From: a virus
Virus record (IMG/VR): IMGVR_UViG_3300033153_001498
Span: 1 to 45,262 of that record
Direction: 5' to 3' (one strand)
Length of the DNA stretch: 45,262 nucleotides
The notes under the pieces were generated by a model. That model was not told the origin of the DNA. It did no database searches and saw only the letters and a program-made list of their open reading frames with translations. Positions 16,564 to 24,331 of the stretch are shown one piece after another (positions within the stretch are counted from its first letter, which is position 1; each line of letters begins with the position of its first letter). The translations under genes and the position numbers were made by a program.

Positions 16564-16991
16564 TGGCAACAGAAGAGTCAAACAGAACAAAGCGAATAAT
16601 GCTAGGCGTTAACAAACTTTGCAAATTATTTAGAAACAACACTGGCAGGGCTTATCAAGGGAGTGGTAAGCCAATCAGAGTTCAAAAACCAACTAAAATG
16701 TTAATGGTCCCAGGTGATGTACTTTTAAAGTGCGCGCGCATTATTGATTTTGGTTTAATGAAGGGGTCCGGTGATACTATTGGTATCACCACAAAAATTG
16801 TCGATGATGCTTTTATTGAAAAATACAGGGATAAACCTATCGGCATTCTTACAACAATCGAAGTTAAGACACCAACTGGTAAATTATCACCAGAACAAAA
16901 ACACTGGATAAAACGCATAAAAGAACTCGGTGGACTTGCTGGGATGGCAACGGACGTTGAGGGCGCGCTTAAAATAATAAATGACGAATAA
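16563..16991 (+). CDS. VRR-NUC domain nuclease
   Basis: The 142-residue protein has the VRR-NUC pattern: 'GSGDTIGIT' (the Gly-Ser-x-Asp loop), 'ILTTIEVKTPTGKLSPEQKHWI' (Glu-x-Lys) and 'LGGLAGMATDVEGALKII'. VRR-NUC enzymes cut branched DNA structures, and stand-alone phage copies often serve as Holliday junction resolvases. It is the last gene of the operon and overlaps the methyltransferase stop codon. The preceding basic N terminus (residues 1-45) probably helps DNA binding. Confidence 0.85.
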   Translation: MATEESNRTKRIMLGVNKLCKLFRNNTGRAYQGSGKPIRVQKPTKMLMVPGDVLLKCARIIDFGLMKGSGDTIGITTKIVDDAFIEKYRDKPIGILTTIEVKTPTGKLSPEQKHWIKRIKELGGLAGMATDVEGALKIINDE

Positions 16992-16993
16992 AA

Positions 16994-17021
16994 AAAACCT
17001 CTGTTAAAAACAAAGGTTTTT
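16994..17021 (+). terminator. Intrinsic terminator after the VRR-NUC gene
   Basis: AAAACCT / AGGTTTT and TGTT / AACA form a stem with one mismatch and a three-A loop, followed by T residues at 17017-17021. It starts two bases after the stop codon and ends the operon begun at 13284. Confidence 0.8.
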
Positions 17022-17169
17022 AGGTGTTGTTGGTAATAATATTAAGGGTTTAATACTATCGAATACATTTTTAACACACACCCACCTCGTTTGTCAAAAA
17101 AAATACTTTGGGGTTTTCCCCAAACCGTGCTAACATACTTTCATAATAAAAATAACGAAGGTTTAAAGT
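17022..17169. promoter_or_regulatory. Control region upstream of the small-gene operon
   Basis: This 148-bp gap holds no gene. It contains operator 3 (17107-17124) and a possible extended -10 promoter: TTGGGG at 17108-17113 and TG-C-TAACAT at 17128-17136, spaced by 17 bases. The -35 element would be inside the operator. A later CATAAT at 17142-17147 has no matching -35. Confidence 0.5.
17107..17124. promoter_or_regulatory. Operator site 3, perfect 18-bp palindrome
   Basis: TTTGGGGTTTTCCCCAAA is a perfect palindrome with the same TTTGG-N8-CCAAA arms as sites 1, 2 and 5. It is the strongest copy by symmetry and precedes the gene at 17170. Confidence 0.85.
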
Positions 17170-17514
17170 ATGTATGACAACGTAGAGTTTAGCGAAATTG
17201 TGAAGCCACCAATATTGTTTCACAAAATGGCAGTAAGATCCGTATACGAGATGCCAGAAACTAAACTTTATTTAGCTGTTATATCGCATGCAATAAAAGA
17301 TGCGTTTTTAGGAAATGAATTGGCACAAAATTCTGCTATTACATTTTTAAAGAGCAAAGGCTTTTGTATTACATGTGGAAAAATTGGAATAGATTTTAAC
17401 TACGCTAAAATACTTGTTAAACAAAATATAAAAGCGTTAGTAAAATGGAAGCATAAAACTGGCTCAAAAAAAGGTGATGCACAGTTATATATTAAAATGT
17501 ATGGTAATAAATAA
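17170..17514 (+). CDS. Hypothetical early protein with phage 'IDFNYAKI' pattern
   Basis: The 114-residue product starts with a ribosome site GAAGG at 17157-17161. The middle and end resemble a recurrent phage family in which helical 'ETKLYLAVISHAIKDA' is followed by a ten-residue spacer, 'FLKSKGFCITCGKIGIDFNYAKILVKQ' and a basic end. That pattern resembles an HTH-like unit seen in small early phage proteins, but I cannot give a name. It is the first gene of its operon and is controlled by operator 3. Confidence 0.6.
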   Translation: MYDNVEFSEIVKPPILFHKMAVRSVYEMPETKLYLAVISHAIKDAFLGNELAQNSAITFLKSKGFCITCGKIGIDFNYAKILVKQNIKALVKWKHKTGSKKGDAQLYIKMYGNK

Positions 17515-20190: not shown

Positions 20191-22890
20191 ATGTATGATT
20201 TTCACGAAATAAAATCATCAGTTAAATTATCTGATGAAGTATCAAAAAGAGTTGACCTCAAAAAAGACGGTAAAGAGTACCGCGGCTGCTGCCCATTCCA
20301 TAACGAGCGCACTGCCAGTTTTACGGTAAGTGACGATAGTGGTTTTTACCACTGCTTTGGCTGTGGCGCACATGGTGATGTTATCGACTTTGTTTCACAA
20401 TTCGACGGTGTAAAGCCGATAGTGGCGTGTGAAATTTTAGGCGGTAAAAAACAGGCCAATATACCAAAGGACCGACCGCAGCGTGAATCTGTTAAGCAGG
20501 ATATTTATGAGGGCATAGTTCCAAATACAACATTGCCAGAAGATGTAAGGGCAATATTTCAGCCAAAGCAGCGCACCAAACAAATCTATAACCCTAAGCG
20601 TGAAACTTATGCAACGTACACACCAGAAATGGTACACGTCTGCAGACAGCTTAACGGCACCATATTTGGCTTTGTTTTGCGTGTAAACTTTAACGGCAAA
20701 AAAGTTACCTTCCAAACAATGGCCTGCACAAACCTGCCAGAGGGCGCAAAAGGTGGTTGCTTATATCCATTTGCCAAAGCATTTGATGATGCAGTGCCGC
20801 CATACCGCGGCCAGGAGCTTGCAGATAGCCCAGATAAGCCAGTGCTTATTGTAGAGGGTGAAAAGTGCGCAGATGTTGCTGCGCCAGTATTAACGGACTA
20901 TGTTGTTATTTCATGGCACGGTGGTACAAACTCAGTTGATAAAACTGACTGGACTTGTTTAAAAGGCCGCGAGGTCTATGCAATGCCAGATAATGACGAC
21001 GGCGGATATAAAGCCGTACAAAAAATTAAAGAGATTCTTGAAACCAACGGAACTAAGGTGCAGACACTGCCAATCAGGCAGGACTTACCGAAGGGCCACG
21101 ATATCGCAGACGATATTGAGGGCGGTTGGGGTCAAGAGGAGTTTAATAGCTGGCTTGGGGACCACGTTGACCAGTCAACAACTAAGCCAACGCCCAGCCA
21201 GCCGTTAAACCGACAAATTGAAGATGGCCCATTCAGCGACATGCCCTTTAGGCAGCTTGGTTGCGGATATGATGGCCGTTATAGCTACTTTTCAAAATCA
21301 AGTGGCACCATACACAGCTTTACAGCATCAGAACACACAGAAAAAAATATGTTTTACCTATGTGCGAGGCAATACTGGGTTGATTATTTGGCCAGCAATA
21401 ACTATGCGGACAACGAAAACCCATTTAAAATATTCAAATTCAAGCCTGAACATGTCAGCGTTATAACCGACAGCTTAATGCAAACAGCCAACCGCCTACC
21501 ATCATTTGACATGCACGGTGGGTCGGTTAGATCACACGGGGCCTGGAAGGACGGCGATAATGTGGCAATTAACCTTGGTGATAAAGTTGTTATTGGTAAA
21601 GAAATTTACGACAACTACGAGGCACCATCTGAGTTTATTTATGAAAAATGCTCACCGCTGGGCATTACACCAAAGAACGGCATGCGACAAACAGAGGCCG
21701 CAAAGCTGCTGGAAATTTGCAATCAAATTACATGGGGCGCTGAATCATCGGGGATTTTACTTGCAGGTTGGATAACAACGTCAATTATTTGTACTATGAT
21801 GAACTGGCGCACACACTTATTTATTTTTGGTGACAAAAACAGTGGTAAATCCACAGTTGCCAAGCGCATTGTTGGTGGCGCCTTAAAAGGTTTGCAAAAA
21901 GATTTTGCAGGGAATACGACAGAGGCTGGTATACGCCAAGAAATTGGTAACCTTGGATTGTCCGTGCGATTTGACGAGGCAGAGGGTGATAGCCAGCGCG
22001 AGCGTGACCAGCAGCAGGCCATTTTGGATTATTTCAGGCTTGCAACAGACATGTCATGTGTTGTTAAAGGCTCCATTGGCGGTACGGCACAAAAGTTTTA
22101 TGCGAGGTTCCAGGGCCTTATGCTTGGCGTTAACCCTCAATTACAACGTGCAACAGATACCACCCGATTTTTAAAGATGGAAGTTGTTGAGGATAGACGC
22201 GACGACTGTGCAGAACGTTATGCGGATCTGCTTAAAAAGTGCAGCGATACGTTTACAGATGAATGGACCGGCAAATTCTTAATGTATGTTGTAAACAACA
22301 TTGACACCATAACACATAACGAAGGTGTATTTAAGCTGGCATGGATGAAAACGCTACCATCAGCACGTATGGCCGACACGTTAGCAAACCCAATGTCTGG
22401 TTATGCACTGCTAAAGGACCCAGGTAAGAAATACACAGTAAAAGAAGCTGAACAGCTACTAAAAACCGTTAAGTGGGAAGACTACATGCCGCAAAACGCC
22501 ACAGCTAGAAACAGCGGCGACTTTATGGACTACTTAATGTCACAGATGATTAACGTGGAAAACAAGCGCATATCAATCGGTAAGGCTGTTATAATGGCAA
22601 CCAAGGCCAAAGGCGGTGAACGTTACCAAGACGAGTTTAAAGCTTACGAGCGCCTGCTAGAGATTGGCATCAAGGTTGATGTTATGTCCAGCAATGTGTT
22701 TTTCCACCCACGCTCAGAAAATTTACGCAAGGTTTTACGTGATACACCTTGGGGCGCAGGTTACGACAGGCTTATTGAAAGCAGGTTTAAAATTGAAAAG
22801 CGCAGCCAGCCAGTACGATTTATTGCAGGTACCAACCCGACACGATCAATTGCGGTGCCATTAAAAGAGTTTACATTAGGATTGGTTTAA
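20191..22890 (+). CDS. Fused DNA primase-helicase
   Basis: The 899-residue protein combines primer synthesis and strand unwinding. Residues 31-65 hold a CHC2 zinc finger: Cys34-x2-His37 in 'CCPFHNE' and Cys55-x2-Cys58 in 'HCFGCGAHGDVIDF'. A Toprim core appears near 218-230 ('VLIVEGEKCADVAA'), with 'DNDDGGYKA' about 40 residues later. The helicase half has a Walker A 'GDKNSGKSTVAKR' near 548-560 and acidic motif 'RFDEAEGDSQRERD' near 590-605. The architecture matches phage primase-helicases of the DUF927/bifunctional type; there is no DNA polymerase gene in the window, so host polymerase must be used. Confidence 0.93.
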   Translation: MYDFHEIKSSVKLSDEVSKRVDLKKDGKEYRGCCPFHNERTASFTVSDDSGFYHCFGCGAHGDVIDFVSQFDGVKPIVACEILGGKKQANIPKDRPQRESVKQDIYEGIVPNTTLPEDVRAIFQPKQRTKQIYNPKRETYATYTPEMVHVCRQLNGTIFGFVLRVNFNGKKVTFQTMACTNLPEGAKGGCLYPFAKAFDDAVPPYRGQELADSPDKPVLIVEGEKCADVAAPVLTDYVVISWHGGTNSVDKTDWTCLKGREVYAMPDNDDGGYKAVQKIKEILETNGTKVQTLPIRQDLPKGHDIADDIEGGWGQEEFNSWLGDHVDQSTTKPTPSQPLNRQIEDGPFSDMPFRQLGCGYDGRYSYFSKSSGTIHSFTASEHTEKNMFYLCARQYWVDYLASNNYADNENPFKIFKFKPEHVSVITDSLMQTANRLPSFDMHGGSVRSHGAWKDGDNVAINLGDKVVIGKEIYDNYEAPSEFIYEKCSPLGITPKNGMRQTEAAKLLEICNQITWGAESSGILLAGWITTSIICTMMNWRTHLFIFGDKNSGKSTVAKRIVGGALKGLQKDFAGNTTEAGIRQEIGNLGLSVRFDEAEGDSQRERDQQQAILDYFRLATDMSCVVKGSIGGTAQKFYARFQGLMLGVNPQLQRATDTTRFLKMEVVEDRRDDCAERYADLLKKCSDTFTDEWTGKFLMYVVNNIDTITHNEGVFKLAWMKTLPSARMADTLANPMSGYALLKDPGKKYTVKEAEQLLKTVKWEDYMPQNATARNSGDFMDYLMSQMINVENKRISIGKAVIMATKAKGGERYQDEFKAYERLLEIGIKVDVMSSNVFFHPRSENLRKVLRDTPWGAGYDRLIESRFKIEKRSQPVRFIAGTNPTRSIAVPLKEFTLGLV

Positions 22891-23100: not shown

Positions 23101-23145
23101 ATTTATACGGTTAACTTGGTAAAACATATAGGGATTTATATTAAA

Positions 23146-23451
23146 ATGTTAAAGCGAATAAAATTACTTATTCTAAGTGCGACATTTACAATGATTATGT
23201 TGACGGTGTTGATGGGATGTTCAAAACCCACGGCAAAGGATGTTGTCGTATCCACCGAACATTACAGCCACAACAAAATAGATGGACTTAAACAGCTAAA
23301 AACTTCGGATGAAACCTTAGCTGGCTATTTTGAACTATCAGTCAGTGCGACTGAAACACACGAGGCAGGTTATGGTTGCGAAAATATAGTACCAACTAAG
23401 CATGCACACAAATACAAGGGGGTTGGTACAAACGTACTTAATCGACTGTAG
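23146..23451 (+). CDS. Phage-encoded lipoprotein, stand-alone moron-type gene
   Basis: The 101-residue product has an N-terminal 'MLKRIKLLILSATFTMIMLTVLMGCSK': basic start, hydrophobic core and the lipobox Leu-Met-Gly-Cys, so it should be lipidated and exported. The mature part is about 77 residues without known domains, with one more Cys near 'GYGCEN'. I chose ATG 23146 (GGGA upstream at 23131) over TTG 23116, because the signal peptide then has normal length. It has its own promoter and its own terminator. Phages T5 (Llp), T1 and phi80 (Cor) use similar small lipoproteins to block their receptor; that role here is inference. Confidence 0.75.
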   Translation: MLKRIKLLILSATFTMIMLTVLMGCSKPTAKDVVVSTEHYSHNKIDGLKQLKTSDETLAGYFELSVSATETHEAGYGCENIVPTKHAHKYKGVGTNVLNRL

Positions 23452-23485: not shown

Positions 23486-23517
23486 AAAAACCATTCTTGC
23501 ACAAGGTGGTTTTTTTT
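23486..23517 (+). terminator. Intrinsic terminator of the lipoprotein gene
   Basis: AAAAACCA at 23486-23493 pairs with TGGTTTTT at 23507-23514 and leads into a run of T. Together with the upstream terminator it isolates the lipoprotein unit. Confidence 0.8.
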
Positions 23518-23537: not shown

Positions 23538-23566
23538 TTGCATCTATTTTGGGGATAAACTACAAT
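23538..23566 (+). promoter_or_regulatory. Promoter of the large RNA, with operator-like site 4
   Basis: TTGCAT (23538-23543), exactly 17 bases, TACAAT (23561-23566) is a near-consensus sigma70 promoter. Its spacer contains TTTGGGGATAAACTACAA (23548-23565), whose first 11 bases are identical to operator 1 but whose right arm is degenerate. No reading frame of useful size follows, so the product is probably RNA. Confidence 0.8.
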
Positions 23567-24244
23567 CCTTTTATTAGTTAATTAGAACCTTATAACTACA
23601 AGAAATTTATATACATATATAAAAGCGCAGTCAGCGCCGCAAGACATAAAACAGCGGCAATTTATTGTAAGAGGTTCCGCTTTGGCTTGCGTAGGGACTC
23701 GGTTAAATTTAAAACCGTACCGCTATTATTCGTAATAGTTGGGAATTAAAATCGGCCACGTATTACGACGTAATCTACGCACCACAGCGAGACGTGGGGC
23801 TGTTAACCATGCCAGAGTGAGGTTACAGAAAGGACTGCAAGGTAAAACTGTAAATAACGTAGATGTTCGAATTGTTTGACTGAACACAAAACATTAACAT
23901 GACAGCTGGAAAGACAGCACCTTTAAAGAGAGGTTTGTGTTAAGTGACACGCGTATTTGGTGAAGGCTAGGCATAGCTAAGGTGGTTCGATCCCACAACG
24001 ACTGGTGCAGGTGCAAAAACAAATTCGGTTCGAGTCCGTAAGATACCAGAAGCAAGAGTAACGCCTTGCACCTCTCTTTAAGGGTTAGCCGTAAGGCGAA
24101 ATAAGGCAAGCCATGTTTACCGAACTTAAACTTTCAAATGAGTAAATATGGTTTTGAACTGCTACGTCTATAGTTGTTGCCGATACATTAGATTAACCTT
24201 TAATTGATAACATTTTATTGCCCTAAGTGTTATCTATTAAGGGT

Positions 24245-24274
24245 TTGCCCAAACCCTGTGAACATCGTTAAAAT
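24245..24274 (+). promoter_or_regulatory. Possible second promoter near the 3' end of the large RNA
   Basis: TTGCCC (24245-24250), 18 bases, TAAAAT (24269-24274) could start a short transcript of about 50 nt ending at the terminator 24309-24331. It overlaps the hairpin GGGTTT-GCCC-AAACCC, so it may be coincidental. Low confidence. Confidence 0.3.
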
Positions 24275-24308
24275 ATGCCCTATTTTTTACCCCCGATGTT
24301 CTTCTCCG

Positions 24309-24331
24309 AGCCTCCGCAAGGAGGCTTTTTT
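24309..24331 (+). terminator. Intrinsic terminator at the end of the large RNA
   Basis: AGCCTCC (24309-24315), loop GCAA, GGAGGCT (24320-24326), followed by six T. It is the first strong terminator after the 23538 promoter. Confidence 0.93.

Follow-up and report, generated by a model that had tools for sequence, protein, structure and literature searches.

What kind of element occupies the gene-free stretch at positions 23573-24331 of a 45,262-base IMG/VR virus record? The record, whose whole length is called the window here, is that of a myophage, with clear genes for terminase, portal, capsid protease, major head protein, sheath and tape measure. The stretch has on one side a small lipoprotein-like gene (ORF 23116-23451) and on the other noncoding sequence rich in repeats. 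Its longest ORFs are 71, 57 and 53 aa long, and its ORFs had no match in PHROGs at E<=0.1. The initial annotation of about 700 bases without a credible gene is thus upheld, and the search for a conserved protein reading frame gave no coding evidence. The lipoprotein-like gene just 5' of the stretch (23147-23451, + strand) encodes a short protein with a lipoprotein-type signal (LMGC), for which a family search found no confident family match. On the other side, the segment 24407-24828 has 17 TGTAAC/GTTACA motifs in 420 nt, where about 0.3 would be expected from the window-wide rate. This array, with long imperfect inverted repeats and an iteron- or operator-like appearance, lies directly after the terminator of the stretch and near the primase gene.

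The upstream boundary of the unit is probably set by a terminator-like stem, read from the sequence, that would end the preceding lipoprotein-like gene. The strong terminator that had been claimed to follow the gene-free stretch was recovered by the terminator scan (Table 1). With terminators on both sides, any transcript made between them would be a unit of its own, and we infer that about 740 nt of the + strand form a single noncoding transcription unit. A near-consensus promoter had also been proposed. Its letters, TTGCAT-17-TACAAT, are present exactly, but the site is not near-consensus, with eight of 12 positions matched overall and three of six in the -35 element. It was not among the sites listed by the promoter scan, and promoter-like sites around the region are no more frequent than chance predicts (12 sites, with 9.4 +/- 3.1 expected). 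The weakness of this promoter counts against the reading preferred below.

Table 1. Boundaries and predicted structural elements of the RNA, in window coordinates.
Feature	Position	Strand	Basis
Putative terminator-like stem and T-run, AAAAACCA..TGGTTTTTTTT	23486..23517	+	read from sequence; absent from terminator scan list
Candidate promoter TTGCAT-17-TACAAT	23538..23566	+	weak; 8/12 consensus matches
5' domain	23636..23830	+	pair probabilities 0.54-0.98
5' domain hairpins	23636-23658, 23700-23717, 23805-23824	+	base-pair probabilities
5' domain stacked helix, carrying 23725-23737/23761-23774	23678-23694/23775-23789	+	base-pair probabilities
Long-range helix closing the central domain, 24 pairs	23841..23870/24154..24181	+	predicted, p 0.92-0.98
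Conserved hairpin UGACA-GCUG-GAAAGA-CAGC-A	23900..23919	+	exact consensus match, variable pair U-A
16-bp helix holding the tRNA-like domain	23919..23934/24070..24085	+	predicted, p 0.98
tRNA-like domain	23956..24050	+	pair probabilities 0.79 and 0.90
Acceptor-like helix UUUGGUG/UACCAGA	23956-23962/24044-24050	+	base-pair probabilities
Short arm GGCUA-GGCA-UAGCU	23965-23978	+	base-pair probabilities
T-arm 1, GUGG-UUCGAUC-CCAC	23982..23996	+	motif search, R1 model match
T-arm 2, CGG-UUCGAGU-CCG, 43 nt after T-arm 1	24026..24038	+	motif search, R1 model match
Hairpin GCAAG..CUUGC, between tRNA-like domain and closing helix	24052..24069	+	p 0.92
Hairpin, 13 pairs	24109..24153	+	p 0.93
3' domain hairpin, 20 pairs	24195..24245	+	p 0.87
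3' domain hairpin GAACAUCG/CGAUGUUC	24260..24301	+	p 0.98
Intrinsic terminator	24308..24331	+	terminator scan; pair probability 0.97

The stretch is structured beyond chance. The 759 nt of the + strand fold with a z-score of -3.96, which is 32 kcal/mol below their shuffles, compared with -2.08 for the reverse strand and +0.61 for an upstream coding sequence used as control. The best 400 nt start at 23841 and reach z -4.8 on the + strand and -1.24 on the - strand; in the genome background, 400-nt windows have a mean z of -0.37 (sd 1.38, lowest -4.2, n=78). The 5' domain folded alone is not significant (z -1.15), which also counts against that reading. The longest uninterrupted Watson-Crick helix in the region has 12 bp, a length reached by three of 150 dinucleotide shuffles; this single helix is suggestive only, and the whole fold is the stronger sign. 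Elsewhere in the window, unusually strong folding of both strands (z -4.2 and -3.5) was seen at 16966-17366, a segment that takes in a hairpin-bearing intergenic gap and has no Rfam match at gathering level.

Three domains are predicted for the RNA: a 5' domain, a central one enclosed by a long-range helix, and a 3' domain that has the intrinsic terminator at its end. Within the central domain, the conserved hairpin would be followed by a 16-bp helix that holds the acceptor-like stem, a small arm and two T-arms. Two helices of this fold had been named before, and both proved longer than described: the 14-bp helix given at 23920-23934/24070-24083 extends to 16 bp (23919-23934/24070-24085, mean p 0.98), and the 16-bp hairpin given at 24197-24243 extends to 20 bp (24195-24215/24225-24245). 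The helix 23841-23870/24154-24181, both T-arms, the conserved hairpin and the stem at 23486-23517 had been overlooked.

Relatives of the whole RNA were sought in several ways. An exact-pattern search of IMG/VR with a 32-nt piece of the RNA found nothing, and blastn against phages and plasmids at E 10 returned chance-like fragments and no whole-RNA homologue. The primase used as bait in a viral scan recovered no relative, and TerL recovered 23 remote relatives; blastn and nhmmer searches of the RNA against the collected loci, including these, gave essentially hairpin-level matches only. One such locus (L279, nhmmer E 0.08) was rejected as a homologue, as its alignment runs through an opposite-strand gene and is anchored on the hairpin. 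In Bordetella phage PY223, which has a related primase, no large RNA gap is annotated at the corresponding position. The proposed check by homologues and covariation is thus answered in part: the T-arms and the hairpin covary in other phages, but no full-length homologue of the RNA was found, and for this reason the named long helices stay predictions from folding.

At the centre of the RNA, two copies of a T-arm were found, each with a TTCRANY loop that a G-C pair closes and a stem whose strands are complementary. The whole 45 kb, searched on both strands, has the motif GGTTCGANNCC at these two places only, against an expected count of 0.09. Enforcing both T-arms together with the conserved hairpin costs 1.8 kcal/mol over the minimum and gives a cloverleaf-like fold. 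T-arm 2 has just three pairs and lies 5 nt from the acceptor-like helix, which is counted against the preferred reading. ARAGORN reports no tRNA in this genome record and does not detect the tRNA-like domain as one, and the Rfam tRNA model (RF00005) has no match in the stretch at E<=10. Since the window seeded the first scan, the two T-arms in it are non-independent evidence; unlike their mere presence, the spacing, the covariation and the hairpin count as independent.

That starting scan covered viral contigs with two close T-arms, from which tRNAs were then removed, and led to two recurrent elements. The double-T-arm RNA family described by the R1 model has the architecture T-arm, CUCG-YUNR-CCGAG hairpin, GGUG element and T-arm, with T-arms 42-46 nt apart. 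T-arm 1 with the CUCG pattern is found in 99 viral contigs, against 22 matches in a collection of bacterial and archaeal genomes. Many of those 22 were discounted, being apparently one repeated coding sequence of Acidimicrobiia and similar MAGs. Bacterial genomes, among them those of Variovorax soli and Hyphomicrobium, also have copies of the double-T-arm RNA, possibly in prophages. Forty-five non-redundant members, recruited via T-arm 1 and the adjoining CUCG hairpin, were aligned (alignment A1); their T-arm stems covary, with 106 double changes versus 30 in shuffles, and 97.6% of cells are paired versus at most 58% in slid controls. Outside the double-T-arm core, the flanks have no general conserved sequence, and most matches there look like tRNAs.

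The R1 covariance model, built without the window, matches it once (23979-24042, 30.3 bits, E 3e-8). True members score 66-78 bits, and weaker second matches, several of which resemble neighbouring tRNAs, score 16-36 bits. The window was kept out of the family because of this lower score and the absence of the CUCG hairpin, and its RNA appears to be a cousin of the R1 RNAs and not a member. The R1 RNAs (L118, L120, L410, L387, L505 from phage Touem01, and others) share with it T-arms at the same spacing, a GGUG element before the second T-arm and often a GACAG-type hairpin in the same RNA; this hairpin lies upstream of the T-arms in the window, whereas in R1 RNAs it lies downstream. No Rfam entry was found for the double-T-arm module.

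The conserved hairpin, UGACA-GC(C)nG-GAAAGA-CnG(G)C-A in consensus, has a single copy in the window and at least about 230 distinct places in other phages, as recovered by two pattern scans of viral contigs (at least ~120 contigs each; loci L144-L381). Covariation of its stem is near-perfect: among the 230 distinct matches listed, 229 can form the variable pair (224 as Watson-Crick, five as G-U) and one leaves it unpaired. Among the matches listed, the hairpin prefers sites outside long ORFs, is sometimes located just 5' of tRNAs, and often has an A followed by a U-rich stretch on its 3' side. The order hairpin, T-arm, T-arm was matched in 11 viral contigs by pattern scan, in several of which the hairpin is followed by tRNAs or by tRNA-like RNAs that have an additional T-arm; in L491 and L495, two T-arms are inside one tRNA-like RNA. 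The hairpin has no Rfam entry that we could find, and a literature search, mainly of open-access papers, found no description of either the hairpin or the double-T-arm module.

Taken together, the region is probably, with modest confidence, one large noncoding phage RNA with a tRNA-like domain, a scaffold that would display a mimic of the tRNA elbow. The initial interpretation is partly supported: a large structured phage RNA outside Rfam is the best reading, with long helices that are predicted. Another reading, which we regard as unlikely, takes the stretch for the remnant of a phage tRNA cluster, in which decayed tRNAs have left their T-arms, the hairpin is a leftover 5' leader and the fold has no function. 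No part of a tRNA is better conserved than its T-arm, and the hairpin is often just 5' of tRNAs in other phages among the matches listed. However, the ARAGORN and tRNA model searches were negative, the loops of both T-arms are still perfect and their stems complementary with nothing else of a tRNA present, and a strand-biased long-range structure surrounds them. Their spacing is also too short for two tRNAs and equals that of the covarying R1 family.

The location between the primase gene (20191-22890) and the iteron-like array of 17 TGTAAC motifs would suit a replication-origin RNA, either a primer or its regulator. Such a role is improbable, as the strong terminator separates the RNA from the array, which the transcript should then not enter, and we know of no part played by T-arms in replication-origin RNA systems. 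Similar size, phage origin and a large ornate fold, with a tRNA-like insert at the position that tRNAs take in some GOLLD RNAs (PMC12286853), are in favour of a very divergent GOLLD or ROOL missed by the Rfam models. This is quite improbable given that neither GOLLD (RF02032) nor ROOL (RF03087) is matched at gathering level or by cmscan at E<=10 with permissive filters. HEARO (RF02033) and the other Rfam large-RNA models likewise have no match at E<=10, so the covariance-model check assigns the RNA to none of them. HEARO has an associated HNH endonuclease ORF, and the HNH endonuclease family had no match among the neighbouring proteins scanned. On other viral contigs, Rfam matches include a tmRNA (L083 8864-9133) and a HEARO RNA (L158 657-896). 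The resemblance to GOLLD and ROOL noted initially, with membership left undecided, thus persists in a large structured phage RNA and does not extend to membership. Very improbable is a spacer, untranslated or without function, that owes an inflated structure score to a few strong hairpins. In its favour are the weak promoter and some other 400-nt windows of the genome that reach z -4.2 to -3.3; against it, two rare T-arm motifs and an exact copy of the conserved hairpin share one strand within 140 nt, and compact phage genomes do not usually contain large spacers.

Other giant phage RNAs were found with no match to the large RNA families of Rfam. L118 has a large noncoding stretch of about 840 nt with the double-T-arm module (z -4.8), and L061 has one of about 1,300 nt with the module and a tRNA inside (z -4.8). 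In Pseudomonas phage Touem01 (PP179325; L505 1754-2697), 945 unannotated nt (z -3.3) contain a double T-arm, a third T-arm and a terminator, which likely makes this a giant noncoding RNA in a cultured phage. L118 also has a 74-nt stretch in common with Achromobacter phages. In the Steinhofvirus phages of Achromobacter Axy06, AMA2, SE2, 83-24 and JWX, the 590-860 nt that separate a conserved gene from the DNA polymerase reach fold z-scores of -7 to -8, and an alignment of six phages has 31 pairs with compensatory changes. These RNAs (L502 2497-3188, L504, L506-L510) have a tRNA-Pro inside, a further tRNA-like insert, about 70-90 nt long, is present in SE2 and 83-24, and several annotations place doubtful short ORFs in the region. 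The Steinhofvirus RNA resembles that of the window as a giant noncoding phage RNA with tRNA-like modules and a strong fold outside Rfam, but it has a true tRNA-Pro and no direct sequence similarity, and the two are linked only through L118. The tRNA-like RNAs at L035 404-540, L083 8290-8430 and L140 12270-12500, in phage tRNA clusters, are about 130-230 nt long and have three T-arms; they share a conserved AATAGGG..CCCGCC motif, and the differences between loci in their acceptor-like stem are compensatory.

It is possible, though doubtful, that the window RNA is part of a broad group, absent from the catalogues, of modular giant RNAs of phages, 600-1300 nt long, that serve as tRNA-mimicking scaffolds or cages during infection, with double T-arms, the UGACA-GAAAGA hairpin and sometimes real tRNAs as their modules. 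Phage noncoding RNA is poorly catalogued, cultured phages included, and the hairpin with its many phage places and the covarying double-T-arm module, both outside Rfam, make such RNAs searchable. As for function, a stable scaffold would most likely show the tRNA-elbow mimic to host tRNA-binding factors, with T-arm modification enzymes, RNase P, EF-Tu and tRNA-cutting host nucleases as candidate partners, by analogy with GOLLD and ROOL, which carry or adjoin tRNAs. It may thereby engage or occupy such factors or tRNA-cutting defences. Alternatively, it may form a GOLLD/ROOL-like assembly in which a tRNA mimic replaces the tRNA.

GOLLD is a giant phage noncoding RNA of 700-900 nt that forms a homo-oligomeric cage (14-mer), and ROOL forms a homo-octamer nanocage. 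To our knowledge, the use of these cages and their link to tRNAs are unexplained. Both RNAs form cages, tRNAs can sit in the GOLLD linker, and ROOL is a large ornate RNA of phages and prophages, often near tRNA islands (PMC12286853). The predicted window RNA would agree with GOLLD in size and lack of ORFs, and GOLLD too lies near or carries tRNAs; in contrast, the window's element is a double T-arm without an anticodon arm and not a tRNA, and the record has no tRNA genes. ROOL is likewise similar in size and ornateness, and the window lacks a match to its model. Functionally, the window RNA may be read as closest to GOLLD and ROOL while being a member of neither, and a giant phage RNA in which a tRNA mimic replaces the tRNA would offer a handle on the link between these cages and tRNAs.
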